NCBI GenBank assembly: GCA_002224055.1 | Contig: AZLU01000253.1 | Span: 1-57,148, forward strand | DNA from: Pezizomycotina sp. ARF18 | Taxonomy: Eukaryota; Ascomycota | Direction of reading: 5' to 3' | Length of the DNA stretch: 57,148 nucleotides | Shown: positions 3,345-56,244 of the stretch, one piece after another | Numbering within the stretch: the first letter of the stretch is position 1 | Layout of the letters: each line of letters begins with the position of its first letter | Notes under the pieces: model-generated | What the model was told of the DNA's origin: nothing | Seen by the model: only the letters and a program-made list of their open reading frames with translations | The model's database searches: none | Made by a program: the position numbers and the translations under genes

Positions 3345-5242
3345 ATGAGGATAGGTCTTTTATACACTCTGCACTTGCAGTAACCGGGATCAGTGGGGTC
3401 CACGCGGATCATGTTGCTGCGAATTCAAAGACTGTTCAATGGACGATCCACAAGGGACGGCTCCGGTAACGCCAGGCTGTCGTTCGAGACTTGGGCTTGA
3501 AGAGACGAGACAAACATTCTGCAGCGAATCGATAAAAGGTATATTATTATCGACATCTTTCAAAATTATATTTATGGTTTATTATTTTTTGACGGACAAT
3601 TTGTCAAAAAAAAAGTTTCCCCCGTCTACTGCTTGGTAACCACACTTAACTATACTTTGTATTTTGCGTTAACATACAGGGCTTTCTTTTCTATGCAATG
3701 TTTCGCTTGGTACTCCACCGCAGCAATTCCACCCTGCATGTCGACACCGGCAGCTCAGATATTGGGTTCAAAGTCCGCATTCCGAAATTTGCACTTCAAA
3801 AAACCCAAGTCCCTGTGACTTGATTGGTTCATGTATGTGCACACCCAAAGCCACTGATCAGGTGCCCCCTTCCCTCAAATGAGCTAAAAAAAAAAAAAAA
3901 AAAAAAAAAAAAACTAACGTATGTTTAACCTGTTTAGTTGACAATGCGACATCGTCAACTTACAATACATCAATAGCGACTTTTCGATCAGATACATGGA
4001 TGGGGCATTGCAACTGGCGATTACTGCAAAGACACTTTTTATATTGGTGGTGCGACAATAACAGATCTTCAGTTTGGGTACGGGCTGCAATCGGATGTGC
4101 GGGAAGGCGTGATGGTTTAGGATTCCGGATGAATGAAGCTCAGGTTCAGAACGGGAAAGATGAGCCCTACGACAATCTTCCATATCTAATGGCAAAGCAA
4201 GGAATTATCAATTCCGTCTGCTATTCGATATGGCTGAACGATCTATCCTCCTCCACAGGCGAAATTTTATTCGGGGAATTGATACGGAAAAGTATCATGG
4301 TGAACTCGCCACTTTACCATCGAGCGTATGGGTTCGAAAGAAGCATCTCAATTCATCATTACCATGACAGGTCTATCCTACGTCGATGACTCTGGTCGGC
4401 AAACCGTGGTTCAGGCGCAAGCAGACAACGACATGGGCGTGCTGTTGGACACTGGCGCATCGTTCACCTATCTCCTGATCCTATGGCTGACAAGCTTGCG
4501 GATCTCGCCGGGGCCCAATTTGACTTAAACATCAATGGCCCGACAATACCCTGCAGTTGGCGCTTCAAGCACCCAGCTCCGGCCTCAACTTTATCTTCTC
4601 AGGCGTTAACATCAGAGTACCCTTCGCAGAGCTGGTTGTCAACTGTTTTAACGCTAACGGAAACCGTGTACAGCGCCTAATGGCGATCGTATTTGCTATT
4701 TGCATTACTGCGGCGGGAAAGACTATGCCCTCCCTTGGCGATACGTTTCTCAGGTCAGTATATGTTGTATACGACCTCGAAAACGAAGAAATATCCATCG
4801 CACCTACCTTTACAATTCTACAAAATCGCATATTATAGAAGTTGGTTCCGGAAAGCACCCTGTGCCGAAAGCGTCCGGCGTCTCATCGGCAGTCACCGTT
4901 GTCCCCACTGCTACGAATGTAGCCGGAGATATCATCAATCCGAACCCAACTGCGGCGGATGCCACCGGCACTGATCCGGGAAGGTGGCGTCCACACAAGC
5001 GTCAATTACCCCAGCGGGGGATCACGGCATTCTGCTTCCATACTATTATCTTGGGCTTGTTGCATATTAGTATCCTTCTTGTTGCCATTTTTATAGTCCT
5101 TGCTTCCTTCTTGTATACAAGATCGGCGGCTTGGATCCTTCAATATTCTACCGCTTCCTCTGTTTACGTCTTACTAAGGTGGCAATTATTGCTCTATACC
5201 TCCTTTCTTTCTTCTTTTTCCTTTTCTGTTTCTTTCTACTAG
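3345..5242 (+). CDS. yapsin/OpsB-like secreted aspartyl protease, frame-broken
   Basis: This is a pepsin-family (A1) aspartyl endopeptidase of the fungal yapsin, candidapepsin and OpsB type, normally secreted and often wall- or membrane-attached. The ATG at 3345 opens a hydrophobic signal peptide with an Ala-rich end (read across one frame change). The first catalytic motif DTGSS is at about 3743, followed by DI(W)VQSPHSEIC. The second catalytic motif DTGAS is at about 4450. Between them are GDYCKDTFYIGG, NEAQVQNG, PYDNLPYLMAKQG and YSIWLNDLSSSTGEILFGG, all typical of yapsins. LGDTFLRSVYVVYDLEN near 4735 is the C-terminal A1 signature. A Ser/Thr/Pro linker follows, then a hydrophobic tail near 5030-5110 (GPI signal or membrane segment). 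An intron near 3861-3938 carries a 28-base A run. Several one-base losses break the frame (about 3762, 4114, 4273, 4474). The C-terminal end is uncertain. Confidence 0.85.
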
Positions 5243-6291
5243 CGGGAGTTTTATGGGCGTTTAAATTCATGACCGAAAACATAGACGAGTTATTTTATTA
5301 TGACCAATTTTATATTTACGTGGTATTTTTTTTTTTCTTGTAAATACATTCCCATCACCTTATTGAGGGCCCAGAATGCCAAAAAGGTCTGGGCACGAAC
5401 CCTTGCCCGGAGAGCTTTCCGTCTAAGGTTTTTTTTTTTTTTTTTTTCATAGGATTTCCTTTCCTACTTATAGGCGGTTCTTCTTCGTGCACCAAAATCT
5501 CCACGCGTTAGTAGCGTATTCTGCTCTACTATCGCGCTGCGATATTCAACCTTTATACCCAAACTCGCGAGCGCTTGTTCTCGCCATCTTCTAGTCTAAA
5601 TTGGAAATATCAAGAAGGCTGTGGAGGTTTAATCTCAATTCATAACTACTACAAAAAATAATACCCTCGTATATAATGATTATTAACTACCTCAAACACG
5701 ACCCTATACATATGAACTACATCTTTATAAGTTATATTTAGTGTTAATTTTGATTTTGGTTTTGATTTTGCGGGGGAGGAAGGTTAAGGTTATAAAGTTA
5801 GTGTGAAGGAATGGTCGCTTCTCAAATAAGACACCACAAAATAAAAATCTACTTTTCTTTTTCTTGCCTCCGTTTTACAGGCTAAGTAAGTTGGTTCTAT
5901 TGGTAGCTCCTCTTGAATGGTTGGTTACACAAAGAGACAAAGCTAAAAACAGCCCGTTACAGCCCTAGTTTCTGATATCTTGACGATCGATGTGGTTACC
6001 GTGCATCAGCCGAAGTAACGCCAAGCCTTTCTCTTTTCGTGCGCCTCATTGTGGCTGAAAATATAAAAAGAGAGGCTTAAGTGCGACAAAACCCTAACAC
6101 CCACAGTGATTTTCTGTGCACCAGAAGAGGGAAAAAAAAAAAAAAAGGAAAAGCGTTTGATGCCGGTTATCGAATTAAACTAAACATCCAAAACTAACTT
6201 GCGACTTTGAAATCCTCAAACGCCTGATATTAACAACTATCGATTCTAACAGAGAACACCTAACTCAAGCGGAATTGCTATACTTGAGAAG
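5243..6291. other. intergenic, protease 3' side to L28 promoter
   Basis: No gene is seen. It includes a 7-bp perfect stem (5369-5375 with 5388-5394) followed by a T run near 5431-5447, which may belong to the protease 3' end. A run of A near 6132-6146 and a telobox-like site near 6089 belong to the ribosomal protein promoter. Confidence 0.5.
6089..6097 (+). promoter_or_regulatory. telobox-like AAACCCTAA upstream of the L28 gene
   Basis: The nonamer AAACCCTAA lies about 195 bases before the start codon of the ribosomal protein gene. ACCCTAA-type sites bind Tbf1-like Myb factors in ribosomal protein promoters of many ascomycetes. The match is exact, but a single nine-base site can occur by chance, so its use here is inferred from position. 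Confidence 0.45.
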
Positions 6292-7261
6292 ATGGAGAAC
6301 AACGTTTCAAGGTGAGGATTTATTTTGGGGGCTGTAGTTTTCTATTACTGCAGTCTCCTTCCCCCACGTCTCTCCAGACGACGTACATTCTATCACAACC
6401 TCTTTTCTTCCCTCTCTTCTTTTACGAATATATGGCCGCTAAACATATTACTATAGAGACCTCCTCTGGGAAATTACTCGCCACAACTCTTCTTACCTCG
6501 TCAAGAGAAAGACCAATGGCGGTGTCCAGCTCAGCCGTGACCCCCTCAACCTGAGGAACAAGCACTCCAAAAAGGTCAGTATATTTGTGGAATTTGCTAC
6601 TAAAAATCGACCCGTTTGAATCAATGAATGAATATATACTAACTACCAATCTTCTTGCTATAGCATTCCGGTGCCACAAATGACAAGGCAAGTGCCCCTT
6701 ACGACAATATAGGTGGACCTTTTGGGAACAGGATATAGCATTGAGACGCATTTCAAAAAGAAGAGGGGAGGATAGAGGGAGAGACAAAGGATTACGGGTG
6801 CTGCTCTGCAAGCTGTGTCGCAGGTTTTGAGTGCTGATGGCGTAGCGATAACAGTCGATCGGATTGGCGCTGAAACGAAAAGGGCGGCCTCACTCTCCTC
6901 ACCAAGAAGAAGAATGGTCAATTGCACACCACCAACTTCTCCGGCTCCAAGTCTCACCGCAAATCGTACCACGCGATTGTCAACTCCACCGCGAAGAAGA
7001 ACTACAGATCAGATCTCCGTAGTGTAAGTGCCACCTACCAGCTTGAAATTTTTTTCTTAAATAAAACAGGATACACGTTGAAACATTCTACCACGGAACT
7101 TTTCGCTAACATTTACGCAATCTACAGGATGTTGTCGCTAGGGCCTCGGCAATCCTCAAGTCGCAACGCAACCCACCAAAGGAGAAGGCCCCTCGAAGCC
7201 AAGAGGTGTGAAGGCAAAGAAGGCCGCTGCTGCTGGCGCCGCTGGTGCTGAGGTCGATTAG
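6292..7261 (+). CDS. 60S ribosomal protein L28 (L28e family)
   Basis: This is a structural protein of the cytosolic large ribosomal subunit. Exon 1 (6292-6311) encodes MENNVS and exon 2 (6457-6574) gives DLLWEITRHNSSYLVKRK and RDPLNLRNKHS, the strongly conserved L28e N-terminus. Later exons give HSGATNDKA (from 6664), GLTLLTKKKNGQLHTT and SYHAIVNSTAKKNYRSDLRS (ending 7023), and the last exon (7128-7261) gives ARASAILKSQR and a Lys/Ala-rich tail. About 150 bases between the NDKA codons and 6824 are best read as an intron. The frame breaks at GGG 6892-6894 and CCCC 7189-7192, each cured by one more base of the run. Many introns in a short ribosomal protein gene are normal for filamentous fungi. 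A telobox-like site lies upstream. Confidence 0.92.
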
Positions 7262-8478
7262 TTGAAGATATTATCTACTATGCAGTATAGATTGGCGAAT
7301 ACTTTTTAGTTATATTATATCCAAAGCTTTTACTATACATATCTTTTCGTTCTCAGCCGGGGTGTTCTTTTTTTTTTTAACAAGAAAAATCCAAGTAGTA
7401 TCTTTCAAACGAATGTCGTCGTTGCCCTTTTTATCTTTGTCTTGGTATCCTACTTTTTACCTTTCTCCGGGTTTATAATGTGTTTATGGGTTCTCGTTGG
7501 GGTTGTTTTCTTTCTTTTTCTTTTCTTTTTTCCCAAGTTTCAAGTTTTTCGTCCGTTTCCTTAATCTTATTCCTGTTATAAATACTAATATTTCCTAAAA
7601 AGGCTCTTTATATATAAATGAAGTGGATTGCTTTTGGACTTCCGATGTGTATAATAATATAATCGTATCTTGTTTAAGCTCAATTAAGATACCGAATGCT
7701 GACAATAATATTATCTCTGACGTTTGAGGTGCTCTAGATTTCTGTTGGTCTTTTACTCAAGATTTTTTTCCCCTTTTGTTTGTTTTCTGTTCGTTTCAAT
7801 CTCGTCCCGGTCTGTCACGATACCCGACATTCTACCGTAACTTCCCGAACACTGCGTCGGATAGGTCCCGACTGTAAGTAAAAAGATTCAAGAAAACAAA
7901 AAAAAAAAAAAAAAAACATGTACTTGAGTATCTACTTCTGAGGATCGTAAACACAGATCTCCAGACCAATAACTTGCGAGTTATAAGGAGAGCCTACACG
8001 GTACTTGCTGTATTTGCATGTAGTAATGTACAAGGAGGGAAGTTCTTATTTCCCTTGCCGTCTTTCCCGTTCGACTCATTAAAAGCTTGTAGACTAGGGG
8101 AGGGGAGCTTTCTAGCTCGTGTCGTTGATCGAAATACGCAATTGCCGAAAAATATTTGGTCAATAAGCTATTGCGCTATTTTCACGTGGTATATTTATGT
8201 ATAAGAATTAAAGAAGTAGCTCACCGAAGGAGCTGTCTAAATAACCGAATAAAAATTTCCTTCCTTCGTAGTATAAGAAAAAGCTCTTTGCTTCCCCAAC
8301 GGAATTCACCCACTACTTTAACCCCACCTTTTTTTTTTTTTTCTAAAACTTCACTTTCATCCAAAATATAGAAGTTCAACGATTATCGAATATATTCAGT
8401 TAATCTCCCGCATTCTATTCATTAAAAAGCATTCGTATTTACTAAAAAGTCTTTTTATCTTCAATCTCAACGCTCAAA
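7262..8478. other. intergenic between L28 and malate dehydrogenase
   Basis: No gene is supported. The left part is T-rich 3' flank of the L28 gene. The right part is pyrimidine-rich, with a T run at about 8330-8342 and CT-rich sequence up to the start codon, as is common in promoters of highly expressed fungal genes. An A run lies near 7900-7917. Confidence 0.5.
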
Positions 8479-10198
8479 ATGGTCAAGGCAGGTATGATAC
8501 ATATTTTATTGTGATGTTTTAATAGCAATGGATATGAAACTATTTTTGTGCAAGGACTTTTTTTCTTTTTTTTTTAAGCAATTCCTGCTCTTTTACCATA
8601 TCTAGTTTCTATCAAATATACCAAACTTAGAGGTATCCTTGTAGAAATTTTTGTCTTGTTTAAGGGACAAAAGTTCAGACCAGCCATCGAATATCGCTTC
8701 CGGTTGAGGTCGTAAGGTCTTAACAGGTTGCAATTCGTTGGGTGATATTATATTCAAAGCTACCACAAACATTTCAACAGCGAATTATCTTACTGATTGC
8801 TCTGAAAACTCTCTCCATAGTCGTACTCGGTGCCTCCGGTGGCATTGGCCAGGTAATTATCATCCCCCGCAATTCCACTCGTATCCTCGAGCCTTTTAGC
8901 TGCTTTTCGAGTCACTAACCTCTACCTTACGTTTTACTAGCCATTGTCTCTCCTCCTCAAGAACTCTGACCTCATTTCAGAGCTCGCTCTCTACGATGTC
9001 GTCAACACACCAGGAGTAGCTGCGGATCTCTCGCACATTGCCACCCCAGCGGTAAGGGAAATATCTTTTCCTCCAACCTCGATAGAAATACTTGCATAGA
9101 AAACTTCAAATTGTAGTGCACATTGCTAATAGAAAATTTAGGTGGTTACCGGCTACCTGCGCCTGATGACGGTCTGAAGAAGACTCTTACCGGAGCTGAC
9201 ATTGTCGTCATCCCCGCCGGTATTCCAAGTATGTGGCTTCTTATGAAAAATTTCTACTTGAAATCTTTCTCCAATTCACGCTTTGACCTCAATCTTGAAT
9301 AATTTCAGGGAAGCCCGGATGACCCGTGACGATCTGTTCAAGATCAACGCTGGAATTGTTCGGGATCTCGTTATGGGTGTTGCCGAACATTCCCTAATGC
9401 TTTTCTCCTCATCATATCAACCCGGTCAACTCCACCGTGCCCATTGCCGTAGAGGTACTCAAGAGCAAGGGCGTTTTCAACCCAAGCGCGTCTTCGGCGT
9501 CACTACGCTTGATGTTGTTCGTGCCAAGACGTTCACCGCCTCCCTGACTGGGGAGAAGGACTCCCGCAAGCTTACTATCCAGTCGTTGGCGGCCACAGCG
9601 GTGACACCATTGTTCCTCTGCTGAGCCAAGCTCAGCCAGCGGCGGACATTCCCGCTGATAAGCTTGATGCCCTCGTTAACCGTGAGTTGTTAAACTATAG
9701 AAATCCGTTTTAAAAATGTTAAACTGCAGTTGTATTAACCTTCGTTTTGAAATACAGGCATCCAGTATGGTGGTGATGAGGTTGTTAAGGCTAAGGATGG
9801 AGCGGGATCCGCGACTCTTTCCATGGCCTTTGCCGGTTATCACTTCGCCCTTTCTCTCCTGCGCGCCGCCAAGGGCGAGAAGAACGTCGTCGAGCCGACT
9901 TACATCTACCTCCAGGTGTTGAGGGTGGAGAAGCAATCCAGAAGGCTGCCGGTGGTGTTGAGTTCTTTGCGGTCCCGTTGAGCTCGGAGTAGGTTTTCAA
10001 AAAATCCCTCAATATAAATATGTGTATACAGAGCTAAAGTGCCACTCTTTAATCTAGCCAAATGGAGCCGAGAAGGCCATCAATGTCCTCGAGAAGGCCA
10101 ACGAGAAAGAGAAGAAGCTACTGGAGGTCGCTATCAAGGGCCTGAAGGACAACATCGAGAAAGGAGTAGACTTCATCAAGAACCCACCTTCCAAGTAG
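8479..10198 (+). CDS. malate dehydrogenase, cytosolic type (NAD-dependent)
   Basis: It interconverts malate and oxaloacetate with NAD. There is no mitochondrial targeting sequence, since the protein begins directly with [15 protein letters not shown], the Rossmann dinucleotide-binding loop, and it ends PPSK rather than a peroxisomal SKL. This favours the cytosolic form. Further landmarks are [37 protein letters not shown] with the substrate-binding arginines, [37 protein letters not shown] and VVGGHSG with the catalytic histidine. The first exon is only 13 nt (8479-8491) and the second 32 nt (8821-8852). Others are 8941-9051, 9142-9228, 9309-9681, 9758-9988 and 10058-10198. About eight frame breaks, each one missing base in a short run (for example 9160, 9319, 9392, 9419, 9579, 9977), interrupt an otherwise well conserved enzyme. 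Confidence 0.95.
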
Positions 10199-11090
10199 GA
10201 TGACTAGACCTTTTTTTTCTCTTCTCTTTTTTCACATTATTATTTTCATGCCGACTCAGGACAGACTTTTTCCTAATGTTTCACGTTCTTTCAAAGAGAT
10301 GGCTTTACTAATCACGAGATTCCAAAAACTAAAATTAAAAAAATCCACGACAATTGTAGACTTTGATATAGTCAAATATTCATATAAAAGTAAATCGCAG
10401 CTAGTTAAACAAAAGCTAGAATATCAAAAAAGCTAGAGACTTAGAACGCAAATTAAGAAGTTTCCTGCTTTATTCCTTCTCTCTAAACGTCGATGATACA
10501 ACAATTTCGCATTCGGAACCCTTTCCGCGCAGCATTATATTTCTAGAATAGGTATACGATAGACCGCTTCCTTTTCTCTCTTCGCGCTTCCACGCTATTG
10601 CAACTATCTGGCGTATATCATTCTACGACAGCTCGACCAACCTTCGTTCTACATATTGTTCTATGCTCACATATATATACGAAATACAAAATTATTCCGG
10701 ATGGGTAAGTTCCAATTGCGAGAGCTAAAACAGTCAGTATATTGACCTGGCTGCTCCCCTTCTTGCGGTCTTGTATATCAAATTTTCCATCATTTGTTTC
10801 ATTATTAGAAAGTACACCAACGATATTTATATCCTATTATGTACAAAATGTAACCCTAGATATCCCAGACATGTATATATATTTCAAATAAAACGCCAGC
10901 AACCCCGATGATATCTTTACATACTCACAAAGAGTTCGTGACTGTAGTGCAGACGCATGAGATGTTGAAGCGCTCAAAAATACTGCAGAAGCATTCTACA
11001 ATGCAATTTTCAACGTGGTTATAAATCTGAATAAAAAATAAAGAAAGAAAAATATAGTCTAAAATGATTAGTTGTACAACGAGGACTTAG

Positions 11091-11122
<32 letters not shown>

Positions 11123-11274
11123 CAAATCGTGGCGAAGTTATTATTAGAGCAGCCCCTTACATTGTGGAGTTTGGAATTCGACAGATCATGTGAGAACTTT
11201 GGGAACGAAAAGATAAGAAGAAACAGTCCTGTTGCCATCTGGCTGAAGAGCAGAAGAACGGGGGGAAGAAAATA
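10199..11274. other. convergent intergenic, MDH and Trs33 3' ends
   Basis: No gene is seen. The DNA is AT-rich, with a run of about 30 A near 11091-11120. It lies between two genes that end toward each other, so it should contain both polyadenylation regions. Confidence 0.5.
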
Positions 11275-12385
11275 TCAGAACTTAGGCGCCGCCTGCGAGC
11301 TCGTAGTTATCTGAAAAACAGCTATCGGAGGACCCGATGTGTCTGCCGTAACCGTAGCGTTCACGCCCATTGCCGCGAGAGCACCGCGAAGTATACGCAT
11401 GGGTACCAAAGAAACTAATTTTACCTCCCATCAACAATTGCTTCTCAGTGTATGACTTGAGTTTACCATATATGTACAATACGAGAATGAAATGAAAAGG
11501 AAAGGAATGGAAAGGATAATTGAAACTATACCGTAGTAGCTCTAGATATCGGGTTCGTTCCTGCTTCTGCACTCATCCTCGCTAATGGTCTGAATGTGTT
11601 ATCTGTGAGGACATAGACGCCTTTTCATTCAGTCAGAACGGTTTTTTTTTTTTACTTCTTTTTTTGGAAGATGGAACCCCGGAAAAGGCTTACTCTGTGG
11701 TTCGTCTTAAGATTATCAACGTGCTTCATCCAACAAAGTATCTGTTGGAAGAATCGACGTTTCAGCCGATCTGTTAGCTACTTCGGGGCTTCATATGCGT
11801 TGCGTGCGAATCGATCACTCACCCATAGGTCCTTGCACAAGAACTTGATAACGTCCAGCGTATCAGTAAAGCGTGGCCTATCTCTCGAAAACCTGCAGAA
11901 CGAGTGATGTGAGCATGAATGCTATCTCTGAAGAGAACTCGCAAAAGAATTGCTCTGAGATGTGCATATTTCCGAAAATCCTAAGAAAAAACCACGTACT
12001 TCTCTACGAGCCCAATTCCACTCGGTAACCCAAATTCTCCAGCCTGTAAAAACAGCCTCTCGTTCCCCCTCGTCTATAGGAAACCGCTCGCTTCAGTGTG
12101 TCTGTCGAGGCCGCTAATGTCTGCGCCATTTTTGCACCGCTCGCAGCGCCGACGAAACCCGTCGCGGCAGGTGCCCCGGCGCTGTTGCTGACGCCACCGG
12201 CGCCGTCTGTCGCGGCACCATCCGACGCGGGGCGCGGAGGAGCTCTGTATGCTCCTCGTCGCCGAGGACAGGCGGTACGCGAAGGGTACCAGCTCTATCA
12301 GGAGGAGATCTAGGCACGAGGCGCTCAGGAACGACGCATTCGGGTCACCAGAGTTGAACGGCGGTAGCGGAGGATCGAACGACAT
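11275..12385 (-). CDS. TRAPP complex subunit Trs33 (TRAPPC6 family)
   Basis: Trs33 is a Bet3-fold subunit of the TRAPP tethering complexes that activate Ypt/Rab GTPases at the Golgi. The start at 12385 gives MSFDPPLPPFNSGDPNA and FLSASCLDLLLIELVP, the characteristic N-terminus. Across frame changes the protein continues EAVFYRLENLGYRV and GLVEK, then an intron (donor at 11999), FSRDRPRFTDTLDVIKFLCK, NLKTNHR, GVYVLTDNTFRPLARM, and finally GALAAMGVNATVTAD and VFQITT before the stop at 11275. The order and motifs match the family throughout. A low-complexity Thr/Arg-rich insert between about 12120 and 12280 follows the first helix, as in other filamentous fungi. One-base losses at the A runs 12048-12052 and CC 12018-12019 break the frame. 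At least four introns are present. Confidence 0.88.
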
Positions 12386-13696: not shown

Positions 13697-15951
13697 TTAA
13701 TAATTACGAGGAGAATAATGAAATGAGTTAAATGAGTTATAGTGATTTACCGAGGAAGGAAATGAGAGCTGTGGCCTCTTAGGAGGTGGCTGACGTGGTG
13801 AATCGTCTTCGTCATCCGTTGAAGTCAAGTCGATCACTGCGGACGCTGGCCGCTTCGAACTAGCGCCTCCCCCGGGTCGTGAATTGGTAGATAACGCCAT
13901 AGAAGTCTCTCTTGATCGTGGGGTTGCAAGGCCAAAGCGAGATGACGGCGTATCAAATTTCGCAGGTCGCTTATGTGTAATTTCGAGGATCCCTACATCA
14001 GAATCTTCTCCATCGTCCGCATCCTCCTCGTCCGAGTCGTAGGAAGCACTTCTGTTGGGAGGTGGAGGCGTCGCCTTTTTCGGGACAGACCAGTTGCCAT
14101 CTGGGTCAACCGTTACCTGTTCTACACTAGATGAAACAGAGGATAGGATATCTTCGACATATCTTATGAAGGATGCTTGTCAGCCCTTGTATGCAAGAAA
14201 TGATAGCCAGTATTATAGGACCACGAATCGTACTTATCAACAACTAGCTGATCGAATTCCACTCGATTATTGCAAACTGGACAGTTCCAAGTCTTCGCCA
14301 CCCAGGAGTTAGAGAGTTCAGTTCTCGACACAAAATCAGAATTTGAGCACCTACCGGAGCTTGCTCTTGAAGCTGTAAAACGAAAGAGTATCAAAGCACT
14401 GGTTGTGCTTGCATCGACTTGAACGCGCAGGAAGCTTGATTCTTAGCGTCGAGAGCGGGCATTTAAGGGACATAACTGTCGAGGTTGCGATAACGTCCGA
14501 TTCGCTGTTTTGTTTTCTCACTGAAGAGACAAATTTTTTAATTAATAAAGATGAAAAAGCGTGAAGTAAGCAATGTTTTGCTAAACACATGCTGAAAGAG
14601 AAGACGCATACTTTCTTCGAGAACTGTAGCTTTTGAGATGTATTTGCCATTCCTGATCTTTTCGGTCAGTTCAGCGGCAGGATGTTTGCGCACTAAATTA
14701 ACCAGTAAAGCATATTCTATGAATAAAAAAAATTGCACCAATCAAGTTAGCATTAGAACCAGTTAATCTCCCGTAATATAAGGACGATGGCTTACTTTCT
14801 GAGACAAGGCATACGTGATTTGAATGCCATTCTTCATTCCTGGCCACTTGGCAAGCTGGTCTGTTATATCTAGTGGCCTTGTGGTTCCAGGTTTGTTCTT
14901 TAGCCCCCGCAAATTGCCTGGCACTTGTTTGTTATTGACGCGGATTTCAATTGTTGAGGGAATGCGATATCGAGTCTATGGAAGCTAGACCCTTCTGGAA
15001 TTGCGCAATATATCATGCAGCGATAACCTCTGTTGTTGACTTTATCTAGGTGTTCTCCTTCTAACTGTAAGGATTGAGTCACGACGTGTCGATTTGTTGC
15101 CATCACTATGTAGGACGTCATACAGACATTCGTTAGAACGATCAACTCTGAAGAATGAGGGTTGACGGGTGTGGTACGCATGTACCTGGCAGGTAGATCA
15201 TCGGCGTAAGAGATTCCATTATCTCATAGAAAGGGCTGGGTGTGAAGTTGAGATATGAGGTGCCTGAAGAATCTGTTCAAAGTCAGCAAAAAAGAAATAA
15301 ACAAAGGCACGCTAGAGAATCGTAGCGAAAGCGCAAGAAAATTACATACAAATGAGTGAGAGGCTGGTTGGTGGTAACCGTTCGTATAGTTCGGCATGGT
15401 GGACCCTGGCCTATAGGGCTGGCAGTTGACGCCTGGTGCGTCGAGGATGAGGCTGATGAGGATGCTGATGGCCGCGACGGAGAATTTAACCCCTCAGGTC
15501 TGTAAATAACCCTCTTCAAATCCCTTAAGCCGTTATATCTCGACTACTCCGGTATTGCTCGATACCTGCGGAGTAGTAGACTTTCGTGAGTATTTCCTTG
15601 GAACTTTCGAATAACAAAAATAGCCATTCCTTGAACAAGGGAAATCTTTCCTCTGTTCTTGCCCCCATCCGCTCCGCTCATGCTTTCCGCACAACCAAAA
15701 GCTCGTAGACTATCTGGAGTGGATTGGCAGACTTCCGGGAGATGAATTGCTGAAGGAACGAAGAGTATTTGGAGGCTACTTACGATCGATCAATCTCTTT
15801 GAAGCGTGCCTTTAAGACCGGAGGTAGCCATCCCGGAGACTTTGAGGATTTGAGTGAGTTGCTTCACAATGAGCTTCTGATTAACATATCGAATTAAATT
15901 TGCAGACGTCTCATCAAGTTCCTCATCCACTGTCTGGTGTTGATGAGACAT
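13697..15951 (-). CDS. Siz/PIAS-type SUMO E3 ligase
   Basis: It catalyses transfer of SUMO from Ubc9 to nuclear substrates. In order: a SAP DNA-binding motif in exon 1 (15951-15784, MSHQHQTVDEELDETSAN through VKQLTQILKVSG); a Ser/Pro-rich linker (15499-15350); the PINIT domain (PFYEIMESLTPMIYLP, RLDIAFPQQL, RGLKNKPGTTRPLDITD, TYALSQK); then the SP-RING zinc finger (MSLKCPLS, CKHNQCFD, LQLQEQAP, NCPVCNNRVEFDQLVVDK). YVEDILSS and QVTVDPDGNWSVP follow, also typical of fungal Siz. An acidic tail contains a SUMO-interacting motif VIDLT followed by STDDEDD. The start at 15951 directly precedes the SAP region; an in-frame upstream ATG at 16071 would add an unrelated stretch. A missing base in the A run 14377-14380 breaks the SP-RING frame. 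The C-terminal end at 13697 is tentative. Confidence 0.92.
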
Positions 15952-17646: not shown

Positions 17647-18228
17647 CTAAACGCATTGACCAACAAGCCCTAGGATTTCCGCAAAGCCATCTGCGTCTTC
17701 CTCAAGGCTTTGGAGTCCCAAGCCAAGGACCAGCGTTCGACTCTCCTCGTGGTTCCTCATAACGATGGCGGAGGCAATTTGTGCCGCGTATAGTTGGCCA
17801 ATTCCATGCTTTTCCTGTGACCCGACCCCAAGGATACAATGAGGTGTGAGGTGCGGCAGCGGGAGCAAGCCATCTTCGTCGTCGAAAGACTTTCCGTCGA
17901 GTAGGTTGGATTGATGGCGCTCAATTGCACATGAAACTAGACATTGTAAAGGGGAAGGAGATATACACACATATATTCATGTATAAAAAATTTCGTTAGC
18001 GTCTGATAACTATTACTATTATAAACAAAGACGATATATACATATTATATCATGATTATCATGAATACTGGGAGAAATCTTACCCACTGGGATAGCCGAC
18101 CATCCTGGACTACCGTAATGAGGATCTTGTCTGAAAATCCCAAATACGTAACGTCTGTTTTGGTTCTTGACGGTTCCCGAGGCCGTTTTTGTCTTTATAG
18201 GGAACGGCGCAATTTCGAGTTTATCCAT
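17647..18228 (-). CDS. proteasome assembly chaperone 3 (PAC3/PSMG3-like)
   Basis: PAC3-type chaperones guide alpha-ring assembly of the 20S proteasome. Exon 1 (18228-18084) begins MDKLEIAPFPIKTKTASGTV and, after a one-base frame change, gives FSDKILITVVQDGRLSQW, the hallmark beta-strand pair of the family. Exon 2 (17936-17647) gives PLPHLTPHCILG, LYAAQIASAIVMRNHEESR, TLVLGLGLQ and ends in FAEILGLVGQCV, matching the second half of fungal PAC3 proteins. The intron has a GTAAGA donor. The protein is about 145 residues, as expected. It is transcribed divergently from the Dhr1 helicase gene 443 bases away. The family is divergent in sequence, so a profile search would be useful, but the full-length pattern fits well. 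Confidence 0.75.
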
Positions 18229-18671: not shown

Positions 18672-21600
18672 ATGCCAAAGTTCAAACCTCGAGACAAAAA
18701 GCAAAGGAAGGCTAGGTCCAACGCAAGCAAAAAAACGCATAATGAGGTGGACGAAAGCAATGGCAATGCAGACCCCAATGCCGTTGTCATGTTGCCTAGA
18801 GCGCAGGCGGCGCACGGCGCGCAAGATGAACGGCGGCAGGAACTCAAAGCAGAGCTCTCGGGAGGCCTCTCCAAAATCTCAAGCAAGAAGCAGAAACGAT
18901 TAGATAAATACATTGTTAGTTGCTCCGGAATTTCTCCGCCAAAGTATTCTATTTTCATTTACCCCTTTGCGGCCGGCCTTTATAACTGATTAATTGCGCC
19001 CCATGCCCAACCACAGGATAGAAAACTCAAAAAGGAGGAGCGCGTCGCCCTTATCCAGAAGCTTTCTGGCGAGCGACCAGATACATCGTTCTTAACCAGT
19101 ACGAGGGATCTCGGTGTCACCAAATTGTCGAAGAAGGAGCAACTCAAGAAGGCACTAAGGGAGGAAAAGGCAGGGTTCAATGTCGAAGCTCACCAGGAAC
19201 TACTCTACGAAGAGCGACCGGTTCCTTCAAACAGGGGTCGGAGTTTTCCATTGGCACTAAAGCAAGCGATTCCGCTTCTCCTCAGCAGGGGCAAGCTCCA
19301 CAACAGCTCCTATAGCTCTGGCGGTAGTGGGCAGTGGATTGAAAAGGAACGGGGACTCCAACGACAATCTCTTACCTATACCTAAGCGTGCCAAACGGAG
19401 CTCAGCAAACCGCGCATCGGAATTGGAGGAGATTGACAATGCGCTAGATAACGGTGTTACGGATGGCGGCCCTTGGACCGGGTTTAGCAGCGAAGAAGAG
19501 GGACCGTGTGCAAGCAGCGAAAGTGAAGATGGCACAGAAAATTCAGAGGTTGACGAGGACGATGACAATGGTTCAGACCACACCTCGTCGTCGAATGACT
19601 CCGATGAGTCGGAAGAATCAGATGAAGAGCAGGAGAGTGACCCAAGAAAAAGGTTAAGAAAAACTGGCGGCAAATCTGAGAAGGCTTCTGCGTTCAAGCA
19701 GTGGGCTTTATCTCAGAGAATGCAGCTCGACAAGGAGAATGATGAAAAAGGCAGTAGCAATGGTTACAATAAGGATACACCAACAGGCCCGGGACTTTCT
19801 AAGACGTCTTCAGATATTGCTATAGCCGAGCCGAACTCCTCGAATGCAGAAGAGGTAGAGGTCAAACACCGTCGCAATATATCCGTTCAAATTAGCGAAG
19901 CTTTGCCAGCGAACCCTTCTCGAAAGGTTCGTCAAACTTGGTGCTTGAGAAATTGAACATGAACTATAACGATAAAAGGCCCCCCAACAGCGAAGCTATC
20001 AAAGATTATTTCGCTTCTACTCCATTTCTAAATCAGTTACTAAATTTAGTATACAGGCTTTTTCGTTAAACGTACCCAGGCCAACCGAGATCCAAGAACA
20101 ACGTCTAGCATTACCAGTTGTCGCCGAGGAACAAAGAATTATGGAGGCGATACACAACCATGATGTCGTTGTTTTATGTGGAGAAACTGGTTCAGGAAAA
20201 ACGACGCAGGTACCTCAATTCTTATTTGAAGCTGGTTACGGCGATCCTTCTAGCGAGACGCCTGGTATAATTGGAGTAACACAACCACGGAGAGTTGCGG
20301 CCGTTAGTATGTCTCGACGGGTCGGCGATGAAATGGGGACTTAGGTAAGAAAGTGGCATATCAGGTGAGAGATAGGATAATTCCCCTTTCTCAAGTTGTT
20401 CTAGCCTAATATTTTCGACTCTGTTGCTTCTAGATCCGCTTTGAAGGTAGTATAGACCAGAACACCGCGATGAAGTTTATGACCGACGGTGTGCTTCTTC
20501 GCGAGGTCTCAGAAGACTTCCTGTTGAAAAAATACTCCGCGATTATCATTGATGAGGCGCACGAAAGAAACATTAACACAGACATCCTGATTGGAACTAT
20601 CAGCCGGGTGGTCAAGCTCAGGCGTGAGATGTCTACAGAGGATTCTGCGATTAAGGTAAGCTAGTAGTAGCTATGGTCTTGTAGCACAGAACCAGAAGTC
20701 TAACTATATGCTCCCCTAGCCATTGAAAGTCATCATCATGTCCGCAACGCTCCGAGTATCCGATTTTGCTGAAAACAAAGCGCTTTTCTCCATCACACCT
20801 CCGGTTCTGAAAGTAGAAGCACGACAGCACAAAGTCACCAATAGATTTTCCCTTCGCACAAGACCTAACTACGTTGAAGAAGCCTACAAGAAAGTGAGCA
20901 AGATTCATCGGCGTCTGCCAAAAGGAGGTAAGCCATACTTCGTTGCCTTTTTTTTTTTTTTTTTCAAGTAGATTATCCTTAAGCTAGTACGAAACAGAAA
21001 CTTAACTGACCTGTCCCGCCGTACAGGTATTCTCGTTTTCTTAACAGGTCAAAACGAGATCTCTACGCTAAGTCGCAGACTGAAGAAAACTTTCAATAAG
21101 GGGTTTAAAGCTACTTCGGAACCGAGTGTCCAAATTCCAGCCAAAGATGGTAAGTAATTTCGCCGTTATTTCATACTATATGTATGTGTCTATTTTACCT
21201 AGGGTGCAATTCCACTAATTGCTCTAAAAATTTTTTCATATAGCGGTTCCCGAAGAAGAGGATATCGACCTCGGAGGCGATGGACCCGAAGACTTCTCTG
21301 TGGACGATTCTGGCAGCGGCAATGAATCTGAAGAAAGCGACATGGGCGAAGAATACGCTGAAGAGGACAACAAAGATCTCGAGCTTGTCGTTCTACCTCT
21401 GTTTTCGTTACTGAATACAAAGGAGCAAATGAAAGTCTTCGAACCTTTGGCCGAGAACCAACGTCTTTGCGTATTAGCAACGAACGTCGCCGAAACTAGT
21501 TTAACAATTCCCGGCATCCGCTACGTCGTAGACACCGGCCGGGTAAAGGAAAGAGCGTATGACAAGTCTACCGGCATGCAAAGCTTTGATATCCATTGGA

Positions 21601-27244: not shown

Positions 27245-27275
<31 letters not shown>

Positions 27276-42234: not shown

Positions 42235-42265
<31 letters not shown>

Positions 42266-43426: not shown

Positions 43427-43456
43427 GATGATGATGATGATGATGATGATGATGAT
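43427..43456 (+). repeat. (GAT)10 microsatellite
   Basis: Ten perfect GAT units preceded by two GAC units. No coding frame is supported around it. Confidence 0.95.
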
Positions 43457-47656: not shown

Positions 47657-47692
<36 letters not shown>

Positions 47693-49791
47693 GAGAGAGA
47701 AAAGAGAGAGAGAGAGAGCAGAAAGAGTTAAAACTTCCAAGTTTATTGGAAATAATGATTTATATAATAATAATGATTATTATTTATTACTTCAGAGTGT
47801 CCCGTGCTGCTATTTTATCAAGTGGTTGAGTATTTATTTATTGGGGAAAGGAAGGGGGGGAGCCTCTCCCCTCCCAAAATAATAATCATTATTACATAGT
47901 ACAACCTAAATGATGTATAAATCACAATTTCGAGAAGTGCTTGGAAAAAGCCAACGATGAGAATAACAACACTTTTCGCTAACTACTTAAGTACCCTTTT
48001 ATTTTATTTTATTTTATTTATTTTTTTCTTCTTTTTTCTCGATACAATATTATTTACTTAATGACCTTTAAAGTCGTATTTCTATCGGTTACCGAGTACT
48101 TCTCAATTTGTTTCGTGATATCTACCTAGGTATTTACGTATTTATTCTTGAGAATACCAAGCTGCCTTTTGACTATTTAGGCAACCTTTTAGCTTTCGAC
48201 TTCCCGCTCTCAATTACTTTTCAAGTTGATTATTGTTCCCTGCCTTCCGGCTTGTTTCGCTGCTGCTTGTTCCTTACAGTTCCTTACTTTTCCTTAACAG
48301 TTCTAAAAGTAAAAAGCCCCCCTTCTATAAGCATGCGCATGTATATCATTTTTCTCCGCTCAGCCTTAAAGATATTAATAATATAAAATTTAATCCTTCT
48401 CCTTCTTCCTCTTCCTCTTCCTCTTCCTCTCTTCCTCTTTCTTTCCTTTTTTCCTCTTTTCCCTGTCGTGTTCCCTGGCACAAGATGTTACTACTATCTC
48501 GCTTCTTGAAAATAAGTACATATATAGTTTTATATGAATGGCTGAGAGAGGTTTTGTCAAAAGAGGGAAATAGAGTGAAGTATAATCATCCCTAACTAAC
48601 AACAGAAGTTACAGAACTCGAATTCGAAAGTAACTCTGAACACGGCGTTTAAAAAAACTGCTCGTAGCTGTCTCCACCTCTCTTACGTGACGTGGTAAAC
48701 CGATGCTCCAAACGCTGGAACATCCAATAACAATCAAGTTTTTTTTTTTTCCTTCCCAAATGCCCGATAAGAGCCAGTTGCCAAGCTCTAGTCACGTGAC
48801 TCGACTCTACACCTTACCGAGCAGCACGTATCGTTAGCTCCCGCCTAAGCTATAGCTACCTCTTTTTTGTCACTGCTTCGGGAGATGTTGATATGTGATA
48901 TTGATCCCAAGTAAATGCTTACCTCTTAGGTAAGTATTCAGGTAATATCTCAGGTGTATCGGACTATAGTTTTGTACAAATATAAAATTGTGTCGTAGTA
49001 GTAGTATAAATAAAATTTCTGTAGCTCCTGATAGGAGTGGCGGTATGATGTTAGAGCTGAAAGGGATTTATAGCATCACTCCCGTAGGACATCTTTATTT
49101 AATACACCTAATACTCAATACTTTTTTAATCTCACTTATAACTGAGCATTCGAAAGTACCTTATTTTAATGGTAGTATATTTGCTTAACTTAAGTAACTA
49201 CTTAGTAGCTGCCATTATATACTATTATTATTCTTATTATTATATTATTATTCTATATATAGCTGCAATTGACCAATCCTATTTTTATCTTTGGGACTAA
49301 TAATTTACGTTGTGCGGAGGTAAAAACCAGAACACTATACTTTTACTACCCGTACTTTCTTTTTCCTTTTTTCCTTTTTCCTTTCTTTTTTTTCCTTTTT
49401 TTTTTTTTTTGGAGCACCAGACGACATTCCAATTTTCGGTCACCTTTTAAACATCTTTTTTTTTACTGTTCCACGTTCGCGCTGCTACAACCTCTCAGTT
49501 ACGGTCACGTTTTATTGCTACGGCGAGAGGGGATACTGAAGAATATATCAAGACCGCTTATTAAAGGAGAGAGAAGAAAGATAAAACCAGACAAGAAAGA
49601 AGAATAGAGGGCAGGACGAGCAGGAACGAGTGAGGGGGCAAAAAAACCGTAATGATATCGGAACACCAACGTTCCTCCCCTCTAGTGCACACAAAATCGC
49701 CACCAGCCCTCCTCCCAGACAACACTTTTCTTTATTCCTCCTTGAATTCTTTGCCTTTGGTTCCAGCATCATTCCTGAGGTCACCGCCACT
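46012..49791. other. long divergent intergenic before calcineurin B
   Basis: No gene is supported. It contains a T run at 46048-46068, a T/G-rich patch at 46812-46827, a GA-repeat tract at 47657-47718, TTTTA repeats near 47998-48020, a (CCTCTT)n patch at 48398-48432 and T runs at 49381-49410. A perfect palindrome GTCACGTGAC is at about 48791-48800. The right end must hold the calcineurin B promoter; the left end, that of the DUF2423 gene. Confidence 0.45.
47657..47718 (+). repeat. (GA)n microsatellite
   Basis: About 60 bases of GA units interrupted by occasional GGA and AAA. Confidence 0.95.
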
Positions 49792-51104
49792 ATGGGGAAT
49801 AATAACTCCCAGATGATGAACAATTAGTGTCAGGGTCAACTTCGACCATGACGAAGTTGACCGGCTACGAAGCGATTCAGTACGTATTTCTTTTTCCAGC
49901 TTCCCCCTCCCCTCTCCGGTCCTCGCTTTCGCCTATCTCTATTATCCAAGACCCGAAATGTTTTGCGTCTAGCAGGAGTTGCTCGTCCTTTTTCTTTTTC
50001 TTTTCTTTTTTTTTTTTTTTTTTTTTCGCCTTTGGGTGGAAATTAAAGCGGCTGCTGACGCCTCACTGACTTCTTACTCTCCGATTACAACAGTGAAGCT
50101 TGATAAGGTATCAAACCGTTGACTCTATATTCTCCCTGTGAACGACACGCGAAAGATATATTTCACCATCTGCCTGCAAGGGATATTTCCCAATTTTCTA
50201 TATGCTTGCTGTCGGCTTTTAACGCACTTATTCTGGATAACATCCTCTTCCCTACGTTGGTATCGTTTGGAGCGTTTCGACCGTTGACACCCTTAACTTG
50301 CCAGGACAACTCAGGTACTATTGAGCGGAAGAATTCTTGAGCTTGCCACAGGTCTCATCGAATCCCCTAGCCACCCGGTATGTTCCTTATCGCTTATTTG
50401 ATGAAGGGGGGAAGCCAGGGTCTCGAAAAAGAGAAAGAAAAAAAGGAAAGGAGGGAGGAAGGGGGTTTTAGAGACCATCCGCTCCTCTGAGTCATAAACA
50501 GTCCTTTGCATAACTAAATTCTTTCTTTTTTTCACTTTTGCGAAAACCGAAATAGTATGATCGCAATTTTTGACGAAGACGGCGGCGGCGATGTGGACTT
50601 CCAAGAATCGTGTCGGGCCTCAGTGCTTTCTCTAGTAAAGGAAACAAAGAGAGAAAGCTTCGATTCGCCTTCAAGGTGTAACGACATCGACCGTGACGGC
50701 TACATATCGAACGGCGAGCTGTTCATAGTATTGAAGATGATGGTCGGGAGTAACTTGAAGGATCATCAATTGCAACAGGTACGATTTCACTTCTTTCTAT
50801 CTATCCTTCAGTTATGATTTTACTGGAAGATCAAGTAATTTTTATTTTACCGCATATTTGCTGACATTCCATCCTCGTTATCTAAAATCAGATCGTTGAT
50901 AAAACGATAATGGAAGCGACGAAGACGGAGATAGCAAGATAAGCTTTGAGGAGTTCACGAAGATGGTCGAGAACACGTATGTTACACCACTTCCCCATGC
51001 TGTGCTATAAATAACTCAAAATGTTTCGGATGATCGTATTCTAATTGCTATTCCTCCTAATCTAGGATGTATCTATGAGCTTAACTTTGGACGACGTTTT
51101 CTGA
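49792..51104 (+). CDS. calcineurin regulatory subunit B
   Basis: The Ca2+-binding EF-hand subunit of the Ser/Thr phosphatase calcineurin, which activates Crz1-type signalling. The start gives [11 protein letters not shown], with Gly2 for N-myristoylation, then [11 protein letters not shown]. Exons: 49792-49879, a 14-nt exon 50094-50107 (encoding the end of RFMKLDK), 50305-50377 ([10 protein letters not shown]1), 50556-50778 ([19 protein letters not shown]2; [22 protein letters not shown]3; [11 protein letters not shown]), 50892-50976 ([30 protein letters not shown]4) and 51066-51104 ([12 protein letters not shown]). All four calcium loops keep their acidic ligands. About eight one-base frame breaks lie in short runs, seven of them losses; the one gain is an extra A at 50680-50681. 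Length, about 174 residues, is normal. Confidence 0.96.
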
Positions 51105-53912
51105 AATGCGCATTCATTATCGTTCATTTTATATTAAAAATACAAATAATATTCCGCTACAGCAATAGATACCGTTTGACAAATTTGTTACAGTAATATG
51201 TCTCCCACAAGCGAGGACAGAAGCTTCAGAGCTTGATGTCGCCATGTGGCGCCGCTAGGTATGCATATGATCGTCTTGATAAGGGAATCTCTTGGTTTTG
51301 TTGGGCTTATATCTTCTCGTTTTGATTTTCCCCATCACTTTTTATGAATTATACCATATAAACGAATTTCTTTCTGCCCACGTATGCAATGGAATCGCAG
51401 CTAGACCTTCCTTCAAAACAAAGACAAGAGAAATCGAGAAAAAGGAGGCAGGGGATTGAAAGAGTAGGTGGATTACCAAACAAATACTCGTAACTCTCCG
51501 GAATGAGACCGCTGTGACGTCGTAGCGAACTCGTATGGAAGCTTAAAACCGGCATCAAGTCAGCCTTCAGCTCCCTGCACGTAGGATATTGTGAATTGCT
51601 TCCCGCCTCGTGGAATTAAAACCTCAGGCGACACATTTATATTCTAGAACTAGCTTCTTTTTTTTTTTCTTGCATGATAAATAAAACAGAGGGAGAAAGA
51701 AATCTGAAGGTGGTCAGCCCACTTATCTAATGATATACATGCATGTATATATGTAACATTTGAGCTACCGCCCCGGAAAAATATTAACGACCGGTCCGAA
51801 GGTGTTGATTAGTGGTCTGTAATTGTATCTGCACGAAACATTGGCATGCTTCATAGGCCGTAATACTATCACAAGTTAACAACACCATTGGCTTGAAACA
51901 TAAGAAAGAGTGGTGAGTCAAAGATAGCTACTTTTTGGTTTCGTTTAAATTTCGAATATTGAGAAGAAAGAAAGGAAGAAGAAGCAAATGGGTATTGACG
52001 CATACTCAGCCTTATGCGGTACGCAGGAGAGTATCAATCAGAATCTTGTTTCGAGTTTACTTCAGCTGCAAGTATGTATTATTCAGCCCTACAGGGTCAG
52101 CTTGAGGCGGAACGATATTTTGAATTGAAACAAGGGCTGTGCCCGGCTTCGAACTCGGAGCTCTTACTACAATAGTATTAAGACAAGGCGATGCAAGTAT
52201 AGGTCGCAATATAAAATGGGTAACGAGAGAAAAAAATTTTTTTTTACTCTTCCTCCCACTGATAATATACAACGTAATCCATGACGATGTCATACCACAT
52301 AGCAAAAGCTCAGATATAACTTGACAACGGAGACGCGGAGATGCTGCGTAACCCCAAAAAAGAAGAAAAGGAGGGAAAAGAAGAAAGCTACGAATATTGA
52401 AAAGCCCGTGGCCATAGATAGTTACGATAAGGAGCTAAGACCCTCCGGATGAGAATGACAACTTTAAAAAGTAGGAATACTAATACAAGACCTAATTCCC
52501 TTTTTCTCCCTCTAGAGCATCTATCAGAGATTTATGGAATCTCCACGATTAATATAAATAGGTATAATTTGATAGATATCAGTACCACTCGTAGATTTTA
52601 AGACTACGCCCTGTTGTATAGATAATTTATAGCGTTAATAATAGTTCTTTTGGTTTCCACATGGCTGAGCGAGCTCGCCTGGAGATAGACTGATTGCTCT
52701 CAGCAAATAATTAATTGGTACTTAAAGGATAAGTGCAGGAGTGGTTTAGTTTAGATGTTCCGGAATATACGCTTAGATGCAAATGGGCGACGTTCATGTT
52801 TGAAAAATACATACGTACATATGGATATATATATACTATGTTGGTGGGATTTGGGGACTATTTCACAGAACAAAGAAAACCATCGATGGCATTATTAAAA
52901 GAAAAGGAGGGGGATTGTTTATTTCAACATAACAAGACATACCGATGCTCTCTTCGAGGGGGCCAGATTGGCAGTAGTGAAATATGTTAACAGCCGCATA
53001 TAAATCAAAACCAGAATAATGTCGGGCTTTTGTGTCGTATGTTTTGTAGTGGATACTTTCTTAAAGGATATCTTTTAACATTATATACTAAGGCATCTAT
53101 GGAAAATAAAATATTTTTATAATATACAAAGCGAGAAAAGAAAGGTTGCGTAGTACCCGAGCGCTTCCAGAAGGCATCCCGACTAAATTTATATGACAAC
53201 AAAGGGAAAGAATGGGCAAAAACAAAACTTGATTTTTTTTAAACAAGTACTTTTTCCAAGAAGCTGTATAAAAAAATGAACAGTGCAGACACCATCAAAG
53301 CTCCGATGTAAAGAAGAGAAACAAGACAGGAACACAGGCTCAAACAGTACCAGCTATACAAAAGAAAGAAGATAGCGCCACCCCGAGGAGGGCGTAGAAG
53401 GTAATAAGCAAGAGAGAAAAAAGAGGAAACAAATGAATCCAAGATGATGAAAGGAAACCCTGACGAGCGCCAAACCGGATTGAAAACAAAACACAAGGAA
53501 AATTAATAACAATAGGAAAAGGATACTTTCTATAGTACAAATTTCATGAGTGAATTTATATAATTATGTTTACATTGCATAGCCTGTATGTGCAGTAAGA
53601 ACAATGTAAGGAGGCATGAGCGCCTGTAATCCCTAACTTCTTTTGGTTATAAGTAAGTAAGAAATTAGAGAGAAGCAGGAATTAAATAAGGAAATACACA
53701 AAAACATATGCAACCAAGATAAATGAGTTTTGATGAATATTCGCAGCCGATAACTCCTGCTCCTCGCTTTTTTTTTTTTTTTTTTTTGTGCCATTTATAC
53801 ATGGATTTAAAATACGTATTCTTTGAAAAATGAACAAGAGAAGCAAATATGATAATACATGACCAAGTAAATGGTAATTTGGTTCGATATGTAAAGCTTA
53901 TAGAAGACCTCA

Positions 53913-53960
<48 letters not shown>

Positions 53961-54393
53961 TGGGCAGAGAGAGAGTGAAAAAAAAGGGAAAGTGGGAGAG
54001 AAATACTGAGCGAAAGAAGAAGCTTCAAGTTTGAAGGTCCCCGAACAGTGCGGGCAGCCATTCAGAAATGGTCAGTTGTCGCCGTTGGAGAGGAATTATA
54101 AGATCATGTCGATCTAAAGACGAACAATTTCTCCAGTGAAGGTGGTCTGAAATGAGGACTGGAGAAGACGGCCAGACCCGAAGATGCGTACGCTAATTCC
54201 TTATGAGAACCCTGGTCCTAGAAGGGAAAATGCTAATAGCGATTTTGTTGTGAGAAGTTGCGTTATAATAAAGATATGAGCATATATGCGTCAATAAGCC
54301 CCGTTTATCCGTCTTCCCGTGCGGCTTCCTTGCCGAGCGTCGGCCTCTATATTGCCTTCCGATCTTCGCTCAGTCTCGTTGGAAGAGGGCCAG
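51105..54393. other. convergent intergenic, calcineurin B to Q/H-rich gene
   Basis: No gene is supported. AT-rich spacer with a T run at 53769-53787 and a 44-base A run at 53915-53958, the longest in the window. A tRNA-like B-box pattern near 52143-52155 stands alone without the rest of a tRNA. Confidence 0.45.
53915..53958 (+). repeat. 44-base poly(A) run
   Basis: Forty-four consecutive A, flanked by ordinary sequence. No retroposon target-site duplication is obvious around it. Confidence 0.95.
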
Positions 54394-56244
54394 TTAGCGG
54401 AAGTTGTTGTAGCCAGAAACTCGGGTTCGTCGAGGCTGATTCAGGTCACTTGGTCTGTTTGCTTCCACTCTGTTTGCTTTTTGGATCTTCATTAACGGAG
54501 ACCTGCTCTCCGGTGGACTATGTTTCTCGAGAATATCGAGCATTCTTGTAAAGCTGTGAGAAGGCTTGATATTAGTCCGAAAATTATCAAATTGTTAATA
54601 CGCAAAAGTGTTTTTTCTCCCCCTCTCAATCTTACCTTCTAATATCTCCTCCTCCCAAACACCCATCTGGTAATCCACTAGTCCGTGTTTCTCCATGGTA
54701 TCGCATAGCCGAATGAGTTCTTTGCCAGTCTTTCTAGCCCTTCTTCTTGTAGAATGTTTCTCGCGGAAGCAAGATCCTGATCCGCGTCGACCAGTTGTTG
54801 CAATAACTCTTTCTCTTTATTTATTACAGATAACCAACACATATTGAATTCGTTCCACAACCGGGTGCGGTCTGCGTAAAGTGCTTGCTCGTCTCGGACC
54901 AGGCCTGTTAGTCAAATTATCATTAGACGCAGATCAAGGAATACATATGAATGGCTCGAAAAATATAAGAGAGAGATATTGAAACACGGTTTCCATACTA
55001 TGTCAATTGGGGGCAATGGTGTGTGTGTGTGTGTGTGTGGGTTTAAAAATGAAAACGAAAGGATATGTAAAGAGCAGAATTAAAGTGAAGTAATACTCCG
55101 CATGGAAATCTTCATACCAAGGTCAACCGCGTTTGAAAGTAACCAATCCGACACATTCAGCAGGTTCTCGCCTGCCTCCACCAAGTTCCATCACGCATAT
55201 CTGTAAAGGTAGATCTAATTGCATCTTGATAGCGTTTATAAGCGTCATCCAAGGCTTGGTTGCCATTTTGTTGATGCTGAGGGTGTGACGGTTGATGCTG
55301 ATTCGAATGTTGGTTTGATGTTGAAGGAATGGTGTCCAAGGGGCTGAAGACTGTGTTGGCGTTGTGGCGTCTGTGAGTGAGAGTGTTGATGATCGTGTTG
55401 CTGCTGCTGATGTTTGAGAATGATGGGTGTGTTGGTGTTGTTGGTGCCCGTGTTGCTGTTGGCCCTGCGATGTATAATCATCGCTGATTGACGATTCCAC
55501 CTGTGGGACTAACTCATTGATATTTGAGCTGTAAGATGATGACAAAGACGTATATCGGCCAGCCGGACTTTGTCCAGTAAGTCCAGAAAATTGTGTGCCA
55601 GGTTCTTGCGATGGAACGCTATCGCGCTCTGAGGAGAAGTTTCGGTTCCGTAGAATTGTGGAACACCCGCAAACTGACTCGAAAGAACTTCAATTGCTGC
55701 TGCTGTAGGCTGTCGAGATGGAAATTGTTGTTCGTAACCCTGGTTCTGCGTCTGTGACTGAATTCCATAAACCATGTTAGTGTTGTACGACGAATACGAT
55801 CCTTGCCGTTGCAATTGCTCAGAAGGCGAGTAGTCCGCCGTCCGGAAGAGTAATTTAATGGAGTAGTTTGGAGAGACTGGGCGCTATATTGTGGCGAGTC
55901 ATCAGGGTAATAAGTTCCATAGGGTTGTCGAGGCGTCGACGAGGCTGTTGCGATAGCGGCATCGGTAGAGACTGGCTGCCCATGCTCGCGTCGCTGGATG
56001 TTGGCGACCGCGTCAGCAGAAGAGGGCTCTCCTGTAAGTTTCTGCGCCGGCCTGGCCGAGGCCCTCGATTGATCCTCCTCTTTAGCCGTCGCCCAGAAGA
56101 ATCGAGGGACCTCCCGTGATGTTGTATGTTTTCTTGCTCTTCCGCCATTTTCGAAGACCCATGGTCCCTTTGTTCGCCCTTTTCCATTGCACCTGAATCC
56201 GAGAGCCGTTCGCTAGTATCCGGCAGCTGGGTCGCCCAATTCAC
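54394..56244 (-). CDS. conserved Gln/His-rich fungal protein, function unknown
   Basis: The N-terminal half is low-complexity: an Arg-rich start, then SSTPRQPYGTYYPDDSPQYS, QGSYSSYNTNMVYGIQSQTQ and a His/Gln-rich block (QQQHGHQQHQHTHH). The C-terminal half is an ordered helical domain: NQALDDAYKRYQDAIRSTF, LVEAGENLLNVSDWLLSNAV, RTRLWNEFNMCWLSVINKEK, ELIRLCDTMEKHGLVDYQMG and VWEEEIL. This layout (PRQPYG-YYPDDSP, then W-L-S and LVDYQ-GVWEEEI) recalls a conserved Pezizomycotina protein I know only as uncharacterised. A basic Ser/Pro tail ends at the stop 54394. The start at 56244 is the most upstream ATG of the first frame; a later ATG at about 56187 is equally possible. An intron with (GT)n lies near 54910-55110. 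Frame breaks are numerous. Confidence 0.65.
55019..55038 (+). repeat. (GT)10 microsatellite in an intron
   Basis: Ten GT units inside the presumed intron of the Gln/His-rich gene. Confidence 0.9.

Follow-up and report, generated by a model that had tools for sequence, protein, structure and literature searches.

Single bases are missing across many genes in the mitochondria of Physarum, where insertion editing is known, and in Euplotes many genes need a change of frame, which ribosomal frameshifting supplies at sites marked by a constant motif and much sparser than the breaks described here. A different kind of precedent comes from a fungus, Drechmeria coniospora; excerpts of the report (PMC7500977) describe a nanopore-only assembly in which the majority of 305 conserved genes were disrupted by small insertions and deletions (indels), located largely in homopolymers, before the assembly was polished with short reads. 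We examined similar breaks in DNA of Pezizomycotina sp. ARF18, beginning with a window that comprises one entire contig (C253; 57,148 nt) and extending to other contigs of the same assembly (46,361,250 bases in 408 contigs, of which C10, C44, C49, C50, C139, C189, C208, C253 and C257 are named here). Frame breaks were present in every locus tested, within the window and across the genome, and we consider it close to certain (probability about 0.97) that they reflect consensus errors remaining in the assembly and not the biology of the organism. A first-pass annotation made from the letters of the window had reached the same interpretation. It is supported by breaks at nine of nine loci on nine contigs, by protein searches that found no intact copies of three of these genes, by a non-coding repeat and a mitochondrial atp6 gene that are also affected, and by the two ends of the mitochondrial contig, which differ by indels.

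Breaks were counted by frameshift- and intron-aware alignment at nine loci on nine contigs, consisting of five HSP70 genes, ATP synthase beta, GAPDH and two malate dehydrogenases. Further pieces of HSP70, located on C44 and C10, and the remaining chaperonin matches were kept outside this count, and C139 was excluded for its poor alignment to GroEL (28.1%, 1 break, 1 stop). All nine loci were broken, with 71 breaks observed in 4034 codons, or one per 170 coding bases. The calls included 55 one-base losses, seven two-base losses, five one-base gains and four two-base gains, so that losses exceeded gains by 62 to 9 (p ~7e-11 under equal odds). Since the loss of one base cannot be told from the gain of two by frame, a strict-frame tally gave 59 against 12, and the predominance of base losses put forward by the first-pass annotation was seen under either tally. 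A total of 28 introns were called across the nine loci, and the HSP70 gene on C49 had seven breaks with no called intron. Identity to the E. coli protein was 45.6-65.9% at eight of the nine loci and 32.9% at the ninth (C208), and the aligned codons were free of stops under an aligner that penalises them. Family searches recovered the HSP70 and chaperonin genes as fragments (38 and 33 matches, respectively), none longer than 260 profile positions. In the protein search, ATP synthase beta and GAPDH were each represented by a single locus and malate dehydrogenase by two; all four loci were broken, and the search found no intact second copy of any of these three genes.

None of 14 control alignments showed a break; these used seven intact bacterial DnaK/Hsp70 genes (41-68% identity), each aligned with and without four fungal introns spliced into it. 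One intron-spiked control (L047) had two introns called instead of four and one stop read, still with no break, and E. coli mdh aligned to itself also had none. Simulated errors were recovered in most instances, with 551 of 600 uniform single losses and 280 of 300 single gains detected; all 280 were called gains and none a loss.

The most telling test was provided by the mitochondrial contig C50 (231,088 bases). Its two ends seem to overlap, in which case the molecule would be a circle of ~215.4 kb. The positions of tRNAs suggest an overlap of ~15.7 kb, and the ends appear to be one mitochondrial stretch assembled twice. Two parts of this overlap were compared, ~3.8 kb together. Positions 4500-6500 and 219900-221919 (~2.0 kb) differed by 20 indels and no mismatches, while 13943-15728 and 229330-231088, the latter running to the final base of the contig, differed by 54 indels and 7 mismatches in 1804 columns (~1.79 kb), the contig-end stretch being the worse of the two. 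The combined total was 74 indels (67 of one base) against 7 substitutions, and these differences are of the same kind as the changes that break the genes. Sixty of the 67 one-base indels lay in runs of at least two identical bases, which hold 2133 of the 3787 bases compared (p ~7e-9). They became more frequent in longer runs, with 7 in 1654 singleton bases and 16 in the 171 bases of runs of at least six; run length was read in the copy that carries the base, which introduces a small bias toward long runs. Such an end overlap in an organelle contig can reveal consensus error without reads. The mitochondrial atp6 gene on the same contig changes frame, and one of its pieces corresponds to residues 25-148 of ATP synthase subunit a (chain 6b2z_a, which we take to be the yeast protein; E 6.9e-26). 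Pieces of cox1 were also observed on C50, scattered over ~70 kb, and many of the open reading frames (ORFs) on this contig are presumably intron endonucleases.

Indels were also observed outside genes, in a dispersed repeat with a copy near the start of the window (Table 1), which we take to be similar to a miniature inverted-repeat transposable element. The search listed 24 matching places, some of them 94-95% identical to the window copy, and 21 copies were aligned. The closest pair differed by one substitution and three one-base indels, and 32 close pairs differed on average by 8.0 substitutions and 5.6 indels. Against the majority sequence, one-base losses numbered 63 and gains that extend a run 3 (327 other cells were unclassed), a ratio skewed by design, as losses were counted at any base and gains only if they lengthened a run. 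The columns private to one copy give a fairer figure of 39 substitutions, 14 deletions and 3 insertions. The homopolymer excess among the repeat indels was moderate, and part of the differences between copies may be real evolution.

Several observations weigh against consensus error as the explanation, and a number of these concern homopolymers, to which the first-pass annotation had ascribed the losses. Its criterion, one base added to a run of one to five identical bases, fits every base, and the preference for runs that was clear in the C50 overlap was not shown in the coding breaks. At the 55 one-base coding losses the longest run averaged 2.16, with no measurable excess, unlike the nanopore precedent as described in the excerpts of PMC7500977. 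Simulated losses gave mean runs of 2.23 when placed uniformly and of 2.02, 2.18 and 2.73 when confined to runs of at least two, three and four, respectively. Confinement to runs of at least four was rejected on this difference (2.73 against 2.16). No run longer than one was present at 10 of the 55 losses, an outcome never produced by deletion from runs of at least three, and strict rules with that threshold or a higher one therefore do not fit. A mild preference for runs of two to three in the coding breaks is possible, and coding DNA contains few long runs. Long homopolymers within the window have not all collapsed, as an A44 run (53915-53958) and 41 A/T runs of at least 12 were observed.

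The other adverse points come from C50, the tRNAs and the scope of the evidence. Of three later atp6 pieces used as queries, two gave poor results. The piece that follows in a different frame had only a weak match to residues 145-164 of 6b2z_a (E 1.8), with both of its database matches at E up to 5 (E 1.4-1.8) being subunit a, while a third piece had no match and neither of these later pieces matched Pfam. ORFs on C50 reach 487 amino acids (aa) in the 30 kb sampled, so this contig is not broken everywhere; its use as an error-free control was nonetheless rejected on the frame change in atp6. The ends of C50 could in principle be a true duplication, although 74 indels alongside 7 substitutions would be unusual for one. 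ARAGORN recognised 17 of 20 tRNAs from outside C50, the tested tRNAs being the best-scoring ones, and tRNAs were set aside as an error test because the search lists these. All of the evidence is the assembled sequence of a single assembly.

One alternative is that the contig is a degenerate duplicate or a dying haplotype, with intact copies elsewhere. Pseudogenes do have broken frames, and the window does contain dispersed repeats. The DNA search for copies covered 1-20000 and 48500-57148 of the window, and with 1-20000 as the query 39 of 60 candidates were scored and the window itself was missing from the matches, which leaves room for second copies; we did not use this search as evidence on them. 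The search with 48500-57148, the only sound one, recovered its own sequence and, beyond that, only short matches of low complexity. The ATP synthase beta and GAPDH genes, each found as a single locus on another contig, are broken likewise, as are both of the malate dehydrogenase loci found, and the identities to E. coli proteins given above indicate that protein constraint was kept. We therefore regard decay as very unlikely. Misread introns could also mimic frame breaks in genes as intron-rich as these, and two introns of the window malate dehydrogenase were probably misplaced by the aligner. However, the aligner models introns, and the seven intron-spiked controls remained unbroken, including the one with miscalled introns. 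The C49 HSP70 gene has its breaks where no intron was called, abutting pieces lie too close together to hold an intron, and the malate dehydrogenase misplacements concealed breaks and did not create them. It is thus highly improbable that the breaks are introns.

Alternatively, the genome may truly be without these bases, with RNA editing restoring them or ribosomal frameshifting bypassing them. Breaks at all nine counted loci, mostly in one direction, are consistent with such a process, yet the changes were not restricted to coding DNA, as one-base indels were equally common between copies of the non-coding repeat. Both nuclear genes and the mitochondrial atp6 were affected, and taken with the repeat this means that a process acting on mRNA or at the ribosome for nuclear genes would be insufficient. 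In addition, the two assemblies of what appears to be a single mitochondrial stretch are in conflict. The likeness to Euplotes is limited to the many genes that need a frame change, as breaks are far denser here and accompanied by frequent indels in a non-coding repeat (shift motifs were not searched for), and the likeness to Physarum is limited by the disagreement of the mitochondrial copies and by the involvement of nuclear genes. We consider editing or frameshifting extremely unlikely. A more demanding form, in which the fungus truly lacks about one base in 170 of its nuclear and mitochondrial coding DNA, all restored after transcription, and the ends of C50 are real diverged duplicates, has a practically negligible probability.

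Consensus error is therefore our preferred explanation. Contigs of up to 1.12 Mb suggest a long-read origin, and reads from a single-molecule platform may have been assembled with too little depth or polishing. Bases would then be under-called in the consensus, increasingly so as homopolymers lengthen, and the genes of the organism itself would be intact. The likeness to the D. coniospora assemblies lies in small indels that break conserved fungal genes, which were repaired there by polishing. According to the excerpts of that report (PMC7500977), most errors were in homopolymers and polishing added more insertions than deletions; losses dominate here. Gene models, pseudogene counts, ORF lengths and apparent gene losses taken from the present assembly will be wrong until it is polished.

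The loci examined within the window are listed in Table 1. The longest stop-to-stop ORF in the window was 271 aa, and of 17 unmasked samples of 10 kb taken on other contigs, 15 had no ORF of at least 300 aa (three of 20 samples were excluded for stretches of N). Short ORFs were rejected as proof of breakage and retained as a hint only, because intron density alone could shorten them.

Table 1. Features of the window, with the frame changes or family matches observed at each (names marked with a dagger, †, are those of the first-pass annotation).
Feature	Position	Strand	Observation
Dispersed non-coding repeat copy	1559..1782	+	~225 bases, terminal inverted repeats; copies differ by many one-base indels
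Aspartyl protease piece	3883..4386	+	PF00026 (Asp), E 3.2e-6
Ribosomal protein L28e gene	6458..7258	+	Pieces in three frames; frame change near 7199-7205
Malate dehydrogenase gene	8811..10177	+	At least 5 frame breaks, near 9320, 9385, 9417, 9482 and 9562-9566; several introns
Trs33-like TRAPP subunit†	11823..12042	-	Pieces in different frames
SP-RING (zf-MIZ) of SUMO ligase	14221..14476	-	Pieces in three frames
DEAH-helicase-like gene (Dhr1†)	20273..20631	+	Frame change at 20341-20344, where an intron would not fit
Calcineurin B†	49792..50983	+	Pieces in different frames, each searched separately and unmended

The malate dehydrogenase of the window aligned to E. coli Mdh over 286 codons at 52.8% identity, with no stops, five introns and five breaks. 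Eight breaks had been listed for it earlier, and five of these were matched by the aligner within ~20 bases. The other three (9160, 9912 and 9977) were visible by eye only, as frame shifts at 9153-9159, after 9912 and by 9951-9980. Two of the five called introns (9052-9179 and 9952-10057) cover or adjoin these three positions, and no break was reported there. Both introns are probably misplaced, which makes the count of breaks conservative.

Frame breaks had also been claimed for almost every other conserved gene of the window, and this was confirmed in part, with neighbouring pieces in different frames observed for the helicase, the SP-RING ligase, L28e, Trs33 and calcineurin B. The L28e pieces matched PF01778 at positions 1-40 (E 7.4e-12) and, below the cut-off, at positions 53-103 (E 0.011). 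The SP-RING pieces (14378-14476, 14343-14384 and 14221-14310, neighbours being in different frames) matched PF02891 at positions 1-32 (E 1e-14) and, below the cut-off, at positions 39-49 (E 0.026), these two matches coming from pieces in different frames. A Trs33-like piece matched PF04051 at positions 41-66, also below the cut-off (E 1.2e-4), and one piece of this gene ends at 12019. Downstream of the helicase frame change, a piece at 21228-21800 matched Helicase_C (PF00271, E 3.8e-10). Calcineurin B changed frame at 49824/49815/49835 and at 50678/50683, and its EF-hand matches were below the cut-off. An extra A at 50680-50681 had been regarded as a clear gain, and the change at 50678/50683 is compatible with either one gain or two losses. 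In one Pfam search, five of ten window pieces, apart from the named families, had no match or only matches below the cut-off. A piece resembling the mitochondrial protein Pet127 (31021-31404, minus strand; PF08634, E 1.7e-29), absent from the first-pass list, was also observed.

Two units of ribosomal DNA (rDNA) were identical at 465 of 465 unmasked bases and a third had one gap in 351 columns, a sample too small for a conclusion. Contig C189 carries tandem rDNA at 17469-62750, with 5.8S matches spaced by 10,867 and twice 10,867 bases. Two of the 17 tRNAs recognised by ARAGORN lie on C257 and read anticodon TCA, as on the mitochondrial contig, and C257 may hold mitochondrial sequence. The first 914 bases of the window are a repeat with 83-86% identity to six other contigs, located within ~1.2 kb of the contig start in three of these, and perhaps mark a place where the assembly stopped.

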